From contig PXAT01000106.1 in the NCBI GenBank assembly GCA_003565775.1, positions 1 through 44,675 on the forward strand: DNA of 44,675 nucleotides. Reading direction: 5' to 3'. The DNA comes from Ectothiorhodospiraceae bacterium. Lineage in GTDB: Bacteria > Pseudomonadota > Gammaproteobacteria > Nitrococcales > Aquisalimonadaceae. How positions within the stretch are numbered: position 1 is the stretch's first letter; the number at the start of each line of letters is the position of its first letter. Under the pieces are notes generated by a model. The model saw only the letters and a program-made list of their open reading frames with translations, was not told the DNA's origin and searched no databases. This document shows, one piece after another, positions 1,121-34,697 of this stretch. The translations under genes were made by a program, and so were the position numbers.

Positions 1121-1151
1121 TTAAAGAGGCGCTGACCTATTCCCGCGGACG
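1121..1151 (+). repeat. solo end of the GGAAACGCTGA inverted-repeat family (degenerate)
   Basis: TTAA followed by a diverged copy of the family's terminal repeat (GCGCTGACCTATTCCCGCG). It matches the left end of the complete element at 25550-25809 but has no partner end nearby. It lies just upstream of the L,D-transpeptidase start at 1174, so it would be in that gene's leader. Confidence 0.45.
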
Positions 1152-1173
1152 ATTCATTACCAGGAACCACGCG

Positions 1174-3760: not shown

Positions 3761-3949
3761 GGAAGCATGCGTCGTTGCGCGCCGTCGCGTTAAACGGTAC
3801 CTGCTTCCCTGGAGGCCCGGCCGTTTTTGGCCCCTGGCGGCGTTACGCCACCGGCCCGGTAGAATCACTACCGAGCCGGCACCGCGCCTTGCCAGATGCC
3901 CAAAACCTGCCTCGGGCGCAGACGCGGGAATAATTTAGCGTTTCCTTAA
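3761..3949 (-). repeat. MITE-like inverted-repeat element R1 (rearranged copy)
   Basis: On the minus strand this matches the left half of the complete element at 25550-25809: terminal repeat (TTAA then GGAAACGCTAAATTATTC), the CGAGGCAGGTTTTGGGCATC block, and the hairpin CGGTAG-TGATT-CTACCG (3857-3873). The other end does not continue like the complete copy. Instead a piece resembling the middle (AGGGAAGCATGCGTCGTTGC) is present in the opposite orientation, so this copy is rearranged. It carries no gene. Confidence 0.8.
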
Positions 3950-4472: not shown

Positions 4473-5096
4473 GATGATCTCCTCCGTTGGTTATCGGCTC
4501 ATCGGCCGGGCAGGGATTCGCGCTGCCCTGGCGTACTGGGCTTGTGACCGGATAACGCCTCCAGGGGTTCAGCGTCCGCCTGCCTGCTCCGTTCCGGGTT
4601 TTCAGGTCAATGCCGGATTCGTCGCCACGTCACCGTGTGCAGTATCTGTGTTGTCTGAACTTGCGTGAGTTTTCCAGCGAGGGCAAATCCTTCATCAGCC
4701 GATATCTCTCGCCTCGTCCCGGCGTTGTGCCGACGATGGAGCGGAGAGACCGTTAAGGAAACGCTAAATTATTCGCGCGGCTGCGCCCGAGACCGGTTCT
4801 GGTCAGCGGGCGCTGCTCGACCGCAGAACACCTGCGCCGCTGCAAAGCGCGCCTCGCCTCGGAAAAACTGCGGACGCCAGGGCAGGCGTGCGAATACCTC
4901 AGCGTTTTCCTGGAACGAAGGACGGAAGGGAAACCAAGCGAATGCTCCCGAAAACCGGCATGGGAGCGGGTTTGAATACCCTTTCCGGGGGTTGGCGACA
5001 GGCGGGAGGTGGTTGATCGGTCAAGCCCCGGGTACCAGGCGCCTGCCCCGTTGGAGCCGCACCGCAACGGACCACCCGGGGTTCGAGGTTACGGTC
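4473..5096. other. intergenic stretch with one repeat element
   Basis: About 620 bp without a credible gene. It contains the inverted-repeat element R2 (4753-4914). The ORFs crossing it have no ribosome binding site and no recognisable domain. I see nothing else definable. Confidence 0.6.
4753..4914 (+). repeat. MITE-like inverted-repeat element R2 (short form)
   Basis: A 154-bp core (4757-4910) with both ends present: left GGAAACGCTAAATTATTCGC, right AATACCTCAGCGTTTTCC, which is its inverted partner. Compared with the complete element at 25550-25809, the first hairpin module is deleted and the second (CGCAG-AACAC-CTGCG) is kept. Left flank is TTAA and right flank TGGA, so a target duplication is not preserved or was never made. 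It encodes nothing. Confidence 0.85.
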
Positions 5097-5267
5097 TTAC
5101 CCATGCCTTGCCCATTTCCTCAGGGGCATGCGGTAGTCACGGTAGTCGAGGACGACACCGGAACGGCACTCAAGCCCGGTTGAAGCTGGTGCCGTGACCG
5201 GGGTTTCTGTCGCCTCCGGTGCAAGGGCAGACCAATAAGCGAGCCAGAAATCGAATGGTGTGGACAT
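5097..5267 (-). CDS. small hypothetical protein (56 residues)
   Basis: A short ORF whose ATG at 5267 is preceded by an unusually good ribosome binding site, AAGGAGAT, five bases away. The N-terminus, MSTPFDFWLAYWSALAP, is aromatic and hydrophobic; the C-terminus is basic. No known domain is recognised. The nearby phasin gene raises the idea of a granule-associated peptide, but that is speculation. It could also be a remnant of a longer gene, or not be translated. Confidence 0.4.
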   Translation of the reverse strand: MSTPFDFWLAYWSALAPEATETPVTAPASTGLECRSGVVLDYRDYRMPLRKWARHG

Positions 5268-5849
5268 CGGGGATCTCCTTTCCGTCTTCGTCAATCCGGT
5301 CTCTGACGACTTGCTGGGACGTGTCTGAACAGAGAATGGCCATACGGTCAGAGCGATAAGCTGCCGAGACCATGCCTAAGCATTAGCAGGGGTTGATGGC
5401 CAGCTCTGTTCGATGATGCACATATATAGTGTCTGCGGCCCACGGTCGATACGCGGGGCGACCGACTCCACGGCTCCCTGGGGAGCCGGATTCGCTCCAT
5501 GGGAGGCCTGCGCCGGGCATGCTGCGCGGGCAGTTGTCAGGGGAATACGTGGCGGGTTTGTTCCTGACTCGATTCTTTCAACGGTTGCGGTCCCCGCAAG
5601 ACACGGTGGTTGACTGTTACGCCACCCACAGGTCCCGTCGCGAAGGGATTGCTCGCGACCAATGCGACCTGCGTCCGGTTACACTGATGGTCAGTCATCG
5701 AACGCTATCCGGGCAGGGTTGAGCACGGAGGATCCGAGCATGGTTTTACTGCGCGGCAGAACCGGAAGGGATGCGGAGGGAGTGACGTGGGCGGCCCGGT
5801 CCGGGGCAGCCCTCCGTCCGCGCCGTCATGCTGCTGAAGGAAGCCCTGG
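5268..5849. other. intergenic stretch, no gene recognised
   Basis: About 580 bp with only short ORFs lacking ribosome binding sites. The one structure noticed is an inverted repeat, CGGAGGG (5774-5780) and CCCTCCG (5810-5816), which could fold into a hairpin in the leader of the DUF1622 gene. Upstream control signals of both flanking genes probably lie here, but none can be named with confidence. Confidence 0.5.
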
Positions 5850-6224
5850 TTGAGCGCGCTTCTGTTCAGTATTGTCGACGCGCTGATCCTCATGCTGGAG
5901 GCTATCGGCGTTGCTGTCATGGTCGGCGGTTTCATCACGGCCACCATCGTCTACCTGGTGCGCACCCGGCACTGGGCGACCCATCGGGCCTATATCGATT
6001 ACCGGCGGCGCAGCGTGCGTGGCCTGATTCTCGGGCTGGAATTTCTGGTCGCGGCCGACATCATCAAGACGGTTGCAGTCGACTACACCATGCAGAGCCT
6101 GCTGATGCTCGGCATCATCATTCTGATTCGCACCTTTCTGGTATTCGCCCTGCATCTGGAGATAGAGGGCCGTTTTCCATGGAGCGAAGCCGCCGAAACC
6201 GACGACGAGGCCCGGCCACGATAA
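5850..6224 (+). CDS. DUF1622 family integral membrane protein
   Basis: A 124-residue inner-membrane protein with about three hydrophobic segments (roughly residues 5-33, 58-80 and 85-105) and the family's typical GLEFLVAADIIKTV segment. The N-terminal helix is followed by a basic loop (RRRSVRG). The role of the family is unknown. The start is a TTG at 5850 with AAGGA at 5837-5841; the first in-frame ATG (5892) would cut into the first helix. The C-terminus is charged and cytosolic-looking. Confidence 0.85.
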   Translation: MSALLFSIVDALILMLEAIGVAVMVGGFITATIVYLVRTRHWATHRAYIDYRRRSVRGLILGLEFLVAADIIKTVAVDYTMQSLLMLGIIILIRTFLVFALHLEIEGRFPWSEAAETDDEARPR

Positions 6225-6278
6225 GCCCCCGCCTGACGGGCCTTTTGCCGGTGGAGCCCGACGAAAGGCGATTGCAGC

Positions 6279-6313
6279 GCGACAGACGCGGGAATAAATC
6301 AGTCTCTCCTTAA
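6279..6313 (-). repeat. solo end of the GGAAACGCTGA inverted-repeat family (R3)
   Basis: On the minus strand: TTAA, then GGAGAGACTGATTTATTCCC and GCGTCTG. This matches one terminal repeat of the element family; no partner end lies within 300 bp. It is located between the DUF1622 and phasin genes, just upstream of the predicted phasin promoter. Confidence 0.6.
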
Positions 6314-6332
6314 TAATTTTCCTCAAGAGTGC

Positions 6333-6360
6333 TTGAATTGTCGGCAACAACGTCTAACTT
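6333..6360 (+). promoter_or_regulatory. candidate sigma70 promoter of the phasin gene
   Basis: TTGAAT (6333-6338), 16 bases, TAACTT (6355-6360). It faces the phasin gene, whose ATG is at 6444, giving a leader of about 75 bases. Moderate match only. Confidence 0.4.
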
Positions 6361-6443
6361 TTCGACCGAGATGGAATGATGCAGATGCGCAGCACAAGGG
6401 GGCGTTCCCCGGCGCATGAGTCCCGTAGTAGGAGGTGACTACG

Positions 6444-6824
6444 ATGAACGAAGACATCCTCAACAAGACCATCGGCCAGCTCGAATCCTATATGGGCCCT
6501 GCTCGCAAGGTGAGCAGCCTGGTGATCGAACACTTTTCCAGGGTCTCCGAGTTCCAGTTGGAAGCTTTCAAGGCGTACTCCGACCTCAGCGTCGAGCAGC
6601 TGCGCGCCGTGTCCAGAGTGACCGACGCCGAGAGCCTGCAGGACTTTCTGAACGACCAGACCAGGATCGCCAGGACGGTCAGCGAAAAGTTGAACAGCGA
6701 CGCGTCGACCCTCGCCGGTTTCGGCAAGGATCTGACCGACGAGTTGCAGAAGCTGACCCAGGAAAACGTGGCCGCGGCGAGCAGGGCCGCGAGCAAGGCC
6801 GCCAGGGCCGCCAAGGCTGCCTGA
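6444..6824 (+). CDS. phasin family protein
   Basis: A 126-residue, almost wholly helical protein. Phasins coat polyhydroxyalkanoate granules and control their size. The family pattern is visible: an N-terminal amphipathic region, a central FQLEAFKAYSDLSVEQLRAV stretch, and an alanine-lysine-rich tail (RAASKAARAAKAA) like that of granule-binding phasins. The frame starts with a GTG at 6435, but that codon lies inside the ribosome binding site AGGAGG (6430-6435), so the ATG at 6444 is chosen. No PHA synthase gene is in this window, so granule association is inferred from the family. Confidence 0.87.
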   Translation: MNEDILNKTIGQLESYMGPARKVSSLVIEHFSRVSEFQLEAFKAYSDLSVEQLRAVSRVTDAESLQDFLNDQTRIARTVSEKLNSDASTLAGFGKDLTDELQKLTQENVAAASRAASKAARAAKAA

Positions 6825-6847
6825 GACCGGCGCCAGATGCTTTTCTG

Positions 6848-6885
6848 AGCCGCTGCGCCCTCTCTTGAGCAGCGGCTTTCCTTTG
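6848..6885 (+). terminator. intrinsic terminator after the phasin gene
   Basis: Inverted repeat AGCCGCTGC (6848-6856) and GCAGCGGCT (6869-6877), 12-base loop, followed by TTCCTTTG. The stem is strong and the T-run interrupted. It lies 24 bases after the phasin stop. Confidence 0.6.
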
Positions 6886-7073
6886 CCTGCAATGACTGCG
6901 GCGGCCGCGCTGCCCTTGCGGCACTTGCGCCCGCGGCGCTGCCGCAGCGCCAATCGACGGCAACCGCGGCAGGCAGCCTCGCATTTGACCGCATTGTGGC
7001 CAACGGATTTCGCGATCTATGGGCCTATGGGCGCGGGGTGGAAATCGACCTCCCACGCCGGAACATCGGCGGA

Positions 7074-7406
7074 TTAAGCATCAGTCGCGAGATGCCTGAC
7101 GGGCAGGCGACTCACTTCAAGGTCAGCAGTCATTGGCGTCGCATGCTCCCTGGTTCTGCCGAGGACATCTCCGGTCGCATCCAGATAATCCTGGATCAGT
7201 CTCCCGAGTGAGGTGTTACCGTGCTGGATCTTCGGGGTAGTCTCTTGATCCAGTAACTCTGCCTCTCGTTGATCAGCCCAACGCTTCGCCATGGGGTTTG
7301 TCGGAAAGGATTCTGACTCTTCGTACGCAACGCGGTTGACCCGCATGTGAACCCGCACACGACAGGCAACACTCTTCTTTCGTTGGAGTCTGATGTTGGT
7401 CGTCAT
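7074..7406 (-). pseudogene. truncated phage-type tyrosine integrase (N-terminal fragment)
   Basis: About 110 codons resembling only the N-terminus of a phage or island integrase. There is a basic arm-type DNA-binding part (IRLQRKKSVACRVRVHMRV, then ESFPTNPMAKRWADQREAEL) and the start of the core-binding domain (TSLGRLIQDYLDATGD). It then stops at a TAA, and no catalytic domain (R-H-R-Y) follows in any frame. The segment looks lower in GC than its neighbours. It lies directly upstream of the 5' end of dusA, a known target of island integrases, so it is probably the scar of a lost integrated element. A GTG at 7415 is an alternative start. Confidence 0.72.
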
Positions 7407-7531
7407 CAGTTGCACGTATAAACGGGTCTGGGTGCAGAACAGGAACAGTCGGGTGTCGCCAGTGCTCCTGAAACACTGTCGGTCCGCATGAACAGCAGGA
7501 AAGCGTTGGCCGGCGGAATAGTTGCGAACCC

Positions 7532-8536
7532 ATGAAACATGCCAGGAAAATGCTCCAGAACAGCAAGTTACCCAGGCATCACCGATTGTCCGTTGCCCCG
7601 ATGATGGACTGTACGGATCGCTTCGCGCGTTATTTGCTGCGCTTGATCTCGCGCCACGCTCTGCTCTACACGGAAATGGTGCCGGCGCCGGCGATCGCCC
7701 ATGGTAAGCATCTCCAGTTCCTGCGTTTTGACGAGAGCGAGCATCCGGTCGCCGTTCAGTTCGGGGGCAGTGACGAGGTCGAGCTGGCGCAATGCGCGCG
7801 CTGGGCCGAGCGCTACGGCTACGACGAGATCAACCTGAATATCGGATGCCCGAGCGACCGGGTCCGTTCGGGGCATTTCGGCGCCTGCCTGATGGCGGAG
7901 CCGGTCCGGGTCGCGAATCTGGTAACGGCCATGCAGAAGGCCAGCGACCTGCCGGTGACGGTGAAGACACGTATCGGTATTGATGACATGGATGACTATG
8001 CCGATCTGTACGGCTTCGTCGAACAGGTTGCCGAGGCAGGCTGTCACCACTTCATCATTCATGCGCGCAAGGCCTGGTTGCAGGGCCTGAGCCCGAAACA
8101 GAATCGGGATGTGCCACCGTTACGCTACGACAGCGTTTATCGCCTGAAGCAGGATTTCCCTCACCTGGAAGTAGTGATCAACGGGGGCATCCAGACCGTC
8201 GACGAGGCGCTTGAGCACCTGCGGTTTGTCGACGGCGTGATGCTCGGGCGGGTCGCCTATCACACACCCTGGGTTCTGGCCGACGTGGACCGCCGCATCT
8301 TCGGTGCGTCGACACCATTACCGGATCGGCTGACGGTTTACCGGCGATATCTTGCCTACGTGCAGCAGGAGTTGGGGGAAGGCACCGCACTTGCGGCCAT
8401 GAGCCGGCACGTCCTTGGTCTGTTTCAGGGTGTCCCGGGGGCGCGGCAGTTCCGCCGGCATATCAGCGAAAACGCCCATCGTCGCGGTGCCGGGGTGGCG
8501 GTGCTGGAGGATGCCGCTGCGGGCTTGCGCTGCTGA
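7532..8536 (+). CDS. dusA: tRNA-dihydrouridine synthase DusA
   Basis: A 334-residue FMN-dependent enzyme that reduces uridines 20 and 20a in the tRNA D-loop, using NADPH. Hallmarks: the N-terminal SVAPMMDCTDR segment, NLNIGCPSDRV with catalytic Cys106, GHFGACLM, and the C-terminal HISENAHR region. Length is normal for DusA. The ATG at 7532 has no clear ribosome binding site, and an ATG at 7550 is an alternative. The first 15 codons may have been altered by an integration event, because an integrase remnant lies just upstream. Confidence 0.93.
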   Translation: MKHARKMLQNSKLPRHHRLSVAPMMDCTDRFARYLLRLISRHALLYTEMVPAPAIAHGKHLQFLRFDESEHPVAVQFGGSDEVELAQCARWAERYGYDEINLNIGCPSDRVRSGHFGACLMAEPVRVANLVTAMQKASDLPVTVKTRIGIDDMDDYADLYGFVEQVAEAGCHHFIIHARKAWLQGLSPKQNRDVPPLRYDSVYRLKQDFPHLEVVINGGIQTVDEALEHLRFVDGVMLGRVAYHTPWVLADVDRRIFGASTPLPDRLTVYRRYLAYVQQELGEGTALAAMSRHVLGLFQGVPGARQFRRHISENAHRRGAGVAVLEDAAAGLRC

Positions 8537-20820: not shown

Positions 20821-20843
20821 GGAAGCTCCGATCTATTCGCGCT
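20818..20843 (+). repeat. possible solo end of the inverted-repeat family (R4), weak
   Basis: TAGGGAAGC then GATCTATTCGCGC resembles the left end of the element family at 25550, with mismatches. The TAG is the stop codon of the phosphorylase gene. Partner end not found. Confidence 0.35.
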
Positions 20844-20884
20844 TTTCCCTCCGGGCTCGGTTTGTTGTCTCCCTGCACCGTCCC

Positions 20885-25549: not shown

Positions 25550-25809
25550 TTAGGGAAACGCTGAAGTATTCCCGCGTCTGCGCCCGAGACCGGTTTTGGT
25601 CATCTGGCAAGGCGCGTTGCCGGTTCGGTAGTGATTCTACCGGGCCGGTGGCGCAACGCCGACAGAGGCCAAAACCGGCTTGGCCTCCAGGGAAGCATGC
25701 GGCGTTGCGCTGCTTGACCGCAGAATGACTGCGGCACTGCGCAGCGCGCCTTGCCTCGGAAAAATGCAGACTCCAACGCAGGCGTGTGAATACTTCAGCG
25801 TTTCCTTAG
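25550..25809 (+). repeat. MITE-like inverted-repeat element R5 (complete, type copy)
   Basis: The most complete copy: a 252-bp core (25554-25805) with terminal inverted repeats GGAAACGCTGAAGTATTC (left) and GAATACTTCAGCGTTTCC (right), extended imperfectly by GTCTGCG/CGCAGGC. TTAG flanks both sides, as an apparent 4-bp target duplication. Inside are two hairpins: CGGTAG-TGATT-CTACCG (25626-25642), within a longer arm bounded by CCGGTTTTGG and CCAAAACCGG, and CCGCAG-AATGA-CTGCGG (25718-25734). No ORF of transposase type. Its right TTAG supplies the TAA stop of aguB. Confidence 0.9.
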
Positions 25810-26699
25810 TCGCGATAGAGACGAACGAGTTCGCCGTAATGGTCCACGCGCCGGTCGCGCAGATAGGGCCAGACGCGGCGGATCATCTCGCTGCGTCCCA
25901 GATCCACCTCGCAAAGCAGTACCTCGGCGTTGTCGCTCGATGCCTGAGCGAGTATTTCACCCTGCGGACCGGCAACGAAGCTGCTGCCCCAGAAGCGGGC
26001 GCCCGAATCCGGATCGGCGGGGTCGGGTTCGAAGCCGATGCGGTTGCAACTCAGCACCGGTAGGCCATTGGCGATGGCATGGCTGCGCTGGATCGTGATC
26101 CAGGCTTCCCGCTGACGTGCCTGTTCCTCGGCATCGTCGGTATCGCTCCAGCCGATCGCGGTCGGGTACAGCAGCAGATCGGCTCCAGCCGTCGCCATCA
26201 GGCGGGCGGCTTCCGGAAACCACTGATCCCAGCACACCAGCACGCCGAGCCGGCCGAGCCGCGTGTCGATCGGGGTGAACCCGAGATCGCCGGGCGTGAA
26301 ATAGAATTTCTCGTAATAGCCGGGATCGTCCGGGATATGCATCTTGCGGTAGCGACCCACCAGGCCGCGATCACCGTCCAGCACGATGGCCGTGTTGTGA
26401 TACAGGCCGGGAGCACGTTTCTCGAACAGCGATCCGACCACGACGATATCCAGTTCGGCAGCAATGGCCGCCAGGCGCCCGCTGCTCGGGCCGGGAATGG
26501 ACTCCGCCAGATCGAACACCGCCGGATCCTCCTGCTGGCAGAAGTAGCGGCTCCGGTGGAGTTCCTGCAGCAGCACGAGTTCGGCGCCGTCGGCCGCCGC
26601 TTCGCGGATACCGCGCAGACTGGCATCCAGATTGGCGTCCGTATCGTCCCCGCAGGCGTGTTGTATCAGGGCGACGCGAAGGGTGTCGGGCCTGCGCAT
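25806..26699 (-). CDS. aguB: N-carbamoylputrescine amidase
   Basis: A 297-residue nitrilase-family enzyme that converts N-carbamoylputrescine to putrescine, CO2 and ammonia. The catalytic triad is visible: Glu46 in LQELHRS, Lys119 in YRKMHIP and Cys156 in VCWDQWFPE. The pattern GYYEKFYFTPGD is typical of the plant-type AguB. The next gene upstream is agmatine deiminase, which makes its substrate. Together they form the arginine-decarboxylase route to putrescine. The stop codon overlaps the end of repeat element R5, which may have supplied it. The C-terminus nevertheless looks full length. Confidence 0.94.
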   Translation of the reverse strand: MRRPDTLRVALIQHACGDDTDANLDASLRGIREAAADGAELVLLQELHRSRYFCQQEDPAVFDLAESIPGPSSGRLAAIAAELDIVVVGSLFEKRAPGLYHNTAIVLDGDRGLVGRYRKMHIPDDPGYYEKFYFTPGDLGFTPIDTRLGRLGVLVCWDQWFPEAARLMATAGADLLLYPTAIGWSDTDDAEEQARQREAWITIQRSHAIANGLPVLSCNRIGFEPDPADPDSGARFWGSSFVAGPQGEILAQASSDNAEVLLCEVDLGRSEMIRRVWPYLRDRRVDHYGELVRLYRD

Positions 26700-29834: not shown

Positions 29835-29890
29835 TGCCTGCCTCCGTGTCAGGACGGTTTCGTGTGCTGCTGCGGCGCATCCTGCCCACG

Positions 29891-29935
29891 GACGTCAACG
29901 CAGGCCAGGCGCGCGAATACTTCAGCGTTTCCCAA
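29891..29935 (+). repeat. solo right end of the inverted-repeat family (R6)
   Basis: GACGTCAACGCAGG, then GCGAATACTTCAGCGTTTCC, identical in the last 17 bases to the right end of R5. The rest of the element is absent or degraded. It lies between two convergent genes, rsmF-like and VOC. Confidence 0.7.
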
Positions 29936-34587: not shown

Positions 34588-34697
34588 TTAAGGAAGCGGT
34601 GATTTATTCGCACGCCTGCGTTGCCGTCCGCATTTTTTCCGAGACAAGGCGCGCGGCGTAGCGCCGCAGTCATTCTGCGCAAGCAGCGCTTCCTGGA
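34588..34697 (+). repeat. MITE-like inverted-repeat element R7 (right-half copy)
   Basis: TTAA, then GGAAGCGGTGATTTATTCGC and the block CCGAGACAAGGCGCGCGGCG with hairpin CCGCAG-TCATT-CTGCGC. This matches the reverse complement of the right half of R5, with a short join to CAGCGCTTCC at the other end, so the ends still mirror each other. It ends four bases before the mutS stop codon (34698-34700). Confidence 0.85.

Follow-up and report, generated by a model that had tools for sequence, protein, structure and literature searches.

A putative IS5-type MITE whose two-armed core may have changed ends across Gammaproteobacteria

The 44,675-nt stretch of DNA analysed here (hereafter “the window”) carries at 25554-25805 a short palindromic element closed by perfect inverted repeats. 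What moves such an element, and which part of it lasts, its ends or its inside? The usual view classes MITEs by their ends and sees them as dead derivatives of one transposon, whereas in the present case it is the interior that is conserved, and the ends differ between lineages. The explanation that we favor, with a probability of roughly 0.7, is that of an IS5-type MITE with a lasting two-armed core, which would have been re-ended several times.

The element and its copies

Two hairpin arms, perfect ends of 18 bp and a TTAG on either side characterise the element at 25554-25805, just as the first-pass annotation of this DNA had claimed. It had also been called a complete copy; compared with the usual full 269-bp copy of its own genome, it is a 252-bp deletion variant, in which the right arm has lost about 17 bp from its left side. 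Its parts are as follows:

25554..25805, plus strand: whole MITE with two arms, reduced by deletion from the 269-bp form to 252 bp
25550..25553, no strand: left TTAG target duplication (one TTAG at the empty site of the relative G001)
25806..25809, no strand: right TTAG target duplication, whose minus-strand reading gives the TAA stop of the ORF 25806-26699
25554..25571, plus strand: left terminal inverted repeat, GGAAACGCTGAAGTATTC
25788..25805, minus strand: right terminal inverted repeat, perfect
25604..25663, plus strand: left-arm module (CAAGGCGC...GCAACGC), 27.0 bits and E=8.1e-5 with the covariance model R1 (see below), weak when taken alone as R1 E-values are optimistic
25698..25757, minus strand: right-arm module in the opposite orientation, 55.2 bits and E=3.4e-13 with R1

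Each arm thus holds a module of about 51 nt, located about 54 bp from the end of the element. The predicted fold of the 269-bp form is made of a terminal stem, two arms and a mini-hairpin. With 18-bp ends and a length insufficient for a transposase, this form is a MITE in the ordinary sense of a short element with terminal inverted repeats and no transposase.

The window was scanned with a position-weight end matrix trained on 32 ends from outside it. Ten ends were found, at 25554, 25805, 3945, 4757, 34592, 29932, 4909, 6309, 20821, and 1125, with scores from 51.8 (top) to 23.7 (lowest); one further site, 372, scored 16.0, and no score exceeded 10 in the reversed window. None of the eight places initially named as carrying copies is therefore without an end, and the scores lie far above the control. 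Besides the main element, these are:

3761..3949, minus strand: shortened copy with one recognisable end (model positions 1-141 at 3805-3945; module at 3836-3895, R1 E=0.0036)
4753..4914, plus strand: one-armed copy with ends at 4757 and 4909 (model positions 1-54 plus 170-268)
34588..34697, minus strand: half copy with one recognisable end at 34592 (positions 170-269 of the 269-position model)
29889..29932, plus strand: solo right end (nhmmer and position-weight scan)
6282..6309, minus strand: solo end with TTAA (position-weight score 36.1)
20821..20848, plus strand: solo end with CTAG (position-weight score 27.6)
1125..1152, plus strand: decayed solo end, the least certain (position-weight score 23.7, weakest of the ten)

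The three related copies are all real, but the first and third are one-ended and that at 4757-4909 is one-armed. The four solo ends were all recovered, those at 6309, 20821, and 1125 by the position-weight scan alone, as nhmmer left them unmatched at E<=0.01. Compared with G001, which has about 0.4 kb at the corresponding place, the window has about 3.1 kb at 4486-7591, a stretch that includes one element copy and one solo end and amounts to an insertion or a loss.

A search of the whole genome with the 18-bp end, as had been advised, yielded 249 ends at up to three mismatches, vs. 0 in the reversed control. At up to two mismatches, ends are present in 13 of the 14 genomes of the host's family (own genome included). 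A sample of the own genome was examined more closely (21 stretches, 431,847 bp, window included), in which nhmmer gave 103 raw matches, with none in the reversed control. Counting tandem pairs once, these merge into 57 elements: 13 are two-armed with both ends, 7 are shortened with both ends, 32 have one end and 5 have no end. Together they make up 2.0% of the sample sequence, a density that may be overstated, since most stretches were picked from contigs already known to bear copies. According to a crude gene call made for this analysis, 49 of the 50 elements lying away from stretch edges are intergenic. The sample also contains 173 unoccupied extragenic YTAR sites, so a sizeable share of the targets is already filled by the family. 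A preference for stop codons was considered and rejected, as overlap with a stop codon was seen for 11 of the 62 true ends vs. 26.6% of the free extragenic YTAR sites (p=0.15). Draft contigs break in or beside elements (L249 1-148, L253 2-259, L255 1-84, L259 19128-19245, L260 1-120, and L263 7-277), and the true copy number is thus probably above the count. The window copy had no match in the phages and plasmids searched, nor did the exact 18-bp end in viral contigs.

Target site and candidate transposase

An empty-site comparison had been proposed as a check of insertion, and G001 indeed has an element-free site with a single TTAG. The element is missing from six relatives whose sequence aligns to the left and to the right of the site (G001, G005, G008, G012, G004, and G007); three others (G006, G010, and G009) align downstream only, with no element in the 90-110 bp inspected, and G003 aligns over part of the upstream side only. 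In a 40-kb stretch of G001 collinear with the window there is just one partial element, at a different place, which points to a high turnover. The flanking 4-mers are identical in 8 of 18 end pairs of the own-genome sample and in 12 of 19 complete copies of relatives, the latter being hand-picked, making 20 of 37 pairs overall; they are unequal in 10/18 and 7/19, respectively.

The search for a transposase flanked by the same ends leads to G004, a genome in a single contig from the host's family, which carries an IS5-family transposon. There, four copies of a 1202-bp IS encode a transposase of 327 aa with the domains PF01609 and PF05598, matching NF033581 (transpos_IS5_4) at 339.5 bits for a cut-off of 140. 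The ends of this IS are GGAAACGCTGATTTATTC / GGAAGCGCTGATCTAATG, the left one differing from the MITE end by 2 bases out of 18, and its flanks are equal YTAR in three of the four copies and CTAA/CTAG in the fourth. YTAR is given as the IS5 target motif in an account of the family (PMC10359306). A G011 copy, located in JAFIFV010000065.1 (an Ectothiorhodospiraceae MAG), has unequal flanks (CTAG/CTAA). Among 23 other named loci with relatives of the G004 IS, 10 have equal 4-bp flanks according to a script that favors equal flanks; eight of these are YTAR, and most of the ten have GGA-ACGCTGA-like ends. The likeness between the MITE and the NF033581 group of IS5 lies in the ends (16/18 bases) and in the 4-bp YTAR target, while the MITE lacks a transposase. 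No convincing similarity was found between the two beyond the 18-20-bp ends, and so the MITE is not a simple internal deletion of this IS.

In the own draft genome no autonomous copy with MITE ends was found. Its transposases with PF01609 or PF05598 genes lie on two contigs, C198 and C214, and were rejected as movers as neither has these ends. The three genomes of the same genus show no PF01609 or PF05598 gene at all, although drafts lose repeats. The first-pass idea of a MITE family moved by an unseen transposase is nevertheless upheld by the hundreds of ends, the empty TTAG site, and the relative's IS5 transposon, and from these sequence comparisons we classify the window element as an IS5-type MITE with high confidence. 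The ends of about 18 bp would be recognised by a DDE transposase belonging to the NF033581/IS5_4 group, which relatives have and which was not found in the own draft, and this enzyme would insert the element at YTAR, duplicating four bases, as matching ends, duplications and the empty site suggest. G045, from another family of the same order, also contains an element of 161 bp (L062 1501-1661), which has IS5-like ends and is flanked by CTAG at left and right.

A core common to differently ended elements

Genus g2 has another, second element family, which differs in its ends (TAGTGTCCTGTAACCC) but has the same two arms with a homologous tip. At up to two mismatches, these second ends number 57 in G010, 134 in G007, 27 in G013, and 19 in G004, vs. 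0-2 in each of the other 10 genomes of the family (1 in G012, of the same genus) and 0-2 in the reversed control. An IS630-type reading of these ends (TAGTGTCC) was abandoned, since similar ends enclose a PF01609+DUF4372 transposase in the own genome, which we take to be of IS4 type. The transposon in question (L040 849-2178, contig C198) has the ends TAGTGTCCGGTTAA, close to those of the second MITE of genus g2, and a separate DDE_3 (PF13358) gene lies beside it. Two stretches of G007 inspected by eye contained no obvious transposase with second ends.

The arms were then sought across the class. A first arm pattern matched 5 of 143 genomes, own included, and two of the four others contain repeated two-armed elements whose ends are different again. 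A second pattern represents another tip type, absent from the own genome, whose arms both carry the first; it matched 24 of 369 genomes, with a reversed control at 14 genomes and 16 places. Of its 30 loci, 21 lie within an enclosing palindrome, which measures 241-287 bp in 20 cases. Eight of the 24 genomes gave only loci devoid of an enclosing stem and were treated as chance, and G215 was left out, having a 191-bp form only. Fifteen genomes from 11 other families of the class, one of which (that of G014) belongs to the same order as the host, hold two-armed elements of similar size and layout with homologous modules. Their ends are of at least five unrelated-looking kinds:

IS5-like GGGAAACTCTGCACG, with CTAG
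CTAGTACTCTTTCAAGG
TATTAACCCGGCAAGG
CTAGTGGGCCAAGTGG
GTGTACTGCGCCGC

As in the window's family, about 54 bp lie between each end and the start of its module, and module length is 50-56 nt within the limits of the script.

To build the covariance model R1, 32 modules were taken from 14 of these 15 genomes, none of them from the window's family; G249, with a changed first arm, gave no module pair and is absent from it. The C-AG-CG and CAAC columns are invariant in all 32 modules. R1 recognises both modules of the window, and in the own-genome sample it gave 46 matches, 44 inside whole or partial elements and two weak ones outside. On 80 named loci it gave four matches: L116, an element that, as judged by eye, has a TTAA at each end; L126, at 4e-7, a coding-looking stretch (again by eye) with no enclosing stem, probably false; and two at threshold. 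The score of L126 and the two weak matches outside elements mean that R1 E-values are optimistic. In 668 kb of viral loci, R1 found nothing at E<=0.1. The tip-B pattern matched at least 120 stretches of viral contigs, and none of the 80 examined had an enclosing stem or an R1 match at E<=0.1. Plasmids searched with three elements of other families gave no match.

How deep does the likeness go? Over 250 between-genome pairs from 23 elements, identity is 0.765 in the modules (shuffled, 0.544), 0.525 in the ends (shuffled, 0.513) and 0.573 in the outer stems (not shuffled), some pairs being close relatives, which raises all three means. A core common to differently ended elements across the class is well supported. 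The window element, with its R1 match and identical geometry, belongs to the proposed superfamily of two-armed cores. The accessible parts of a largely open-access literature yielded no description of this element or of a shared two-armed core. Adjoining elements with one common CTAG were observed at L262 13959-14500 and L281 300-520; the pair in L281, abutting at one CTAG, consists of elements whose ends are unrelated.

Stems, rival readings and the role of the core

The stems co-vary. In alignment A1 (26 copies, five genomes), 28 of 88 pairs have changed on both sides, 96.4% of cells pair, and none of 500 shuffles reaches this count. Alignment A2 consists of six copies of G010 and G004, strongly different in sequence from those of the window, L279 being excluded owing to an inverted arm tip. 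There, 20 of 108 pairs have changed on both sides and five vary on one side only; 0/500 shuffles reach 20, and the count of further pair types is unexceptional (reached by 69/500). These counts are of sequences rather than of events, and the tested structures derive from the same alignments. In L279, the 53-nt tip of the right arm is inverted relative to L278, with 96% identity. Such a flip is the outcome that would be expected of replication template switching, of which arm homogenisation and spacer inversion are described as the marks (PMC8604942; PMC8794818).

Could the element then be just an ordinary MITE derived from IS5, with hairpins that serve as passive filler, comparable fillers elsewhere having spread horizontally and being kept palindromic by template switching alone? 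This is a doubtful reading, although it has real arguments: the process is reported to homogenise arms and invert spacers (PMC8604942), as seen in A2 and L279, and the adjacency in L281 offers a possible exchange route. Template switching, however, keeps no likeness across families, and the modules stand at 0.765 when the ends are at chance and the outer stems near it; nor would it be expected to leave the C-AG-CG and CAAC columns invariant in 32 modules from 14 genomes. It is more improbable still that hosts keep the core in various mobile carriers for its use as a structured RNA or a regulator, such as a terminator, an sRNA or a site of RNA processing. Predicted folding is strong, all 26 copies of A1 fold better on the plus than on the minus strand, and the MITEs of C. 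burnetii are reported to be transcribed (PMC5896051). In A2, however, the plus strand folds better in just one of six copies, and the 20 doubly changed pairs against five one-sided ones, like the high turnover vs. G001, also argue against RNA. Rfam gave the core no match, returning only a tRNA from the window at gathering score and only cspA, outside the element, from five loci at E<=1.

Correia elements, ERIC, and REP/BIME are dispersed intergenic palindromes like the window element, from which their descriptions set them apart in ends, size and mover. A REP/BIME-like nature, with a RAYT tyrosine transposase moving the extragenic palindromes, would account for the many intergenic palindromes and for a GTAG in one arm tip, this being given as a REP tag (PMC3733652), but is very improbable in view of the IS5-like ends, the 4-bp YTAR flanks, the empty site and the scarcity of free single palindromes, as 44 of 46 module matches in the sample lie inside elements. 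Also similar by description are QMITE1 and QMITE2 of Coxiella (PMC5896051; review PMC10969869), which are also short and non-coding, with terminal repeats, stable folds and tens of copies or more. Their direct repeats are of 2-4 or 7-11 bp and of variable sequence (PMC5896051), and the available portions of the two accounts do not mention a fixed two-armed core with swapped ends (PMC5896051; PMC10969869). The MITEs of Ca. Thiomargarita nelsonii similarly have many copies, a gammaproteobacterial host and large hairpins, but are described as having either TATA flanks or an association with a YhgA-like gene (PMC4853749).

We therefore return to the IS5-type MITE with a lasting core. The lasting part would be the two long hairpin arms, each with its module of about 51 nt, the mini-hairpin between them and the terminal stem. 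As the same core is found with unrelated ends across the class, it would have changed ends, and probably also transposases, several times. Elements may land side by side at common CTAG sites and neighbors may recombine, after which replication template switching could copy the new end to the other side and make the hybrid symmetric; the same process would keep both arms palindromic. At the DNA level, the core may, whatever the transposase in charge, help the element to spread or, being a long palindrome, to survive. That it has a function at all is likely on indirect grounds, at about even odds. Somewhat short of that, we envisage a class-wide mobile parasite of Gammaproteobacteria defined by its folded core, which would repeatedly re-end itself for the available DDE transposase, with template switching copying ends and maintaining palindromes. 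If so, the core would be a selectable unit, and these genomes, each with up to hundreds of ends, would hold a natural record of palindrome upkeep and transposon end swapping.

Orientation relative to flanking genes is unbiased (14 vs. 9 of 23 tandem cases, p=0.40), which does not strongly favor either a DNA or an RNA role for the core. Finally, L372 contains at 1739-2047 a sub-threshold match to the cspA thermoregulator (35.5 bits for a cut-off of 78), near a two-armed element of G174.
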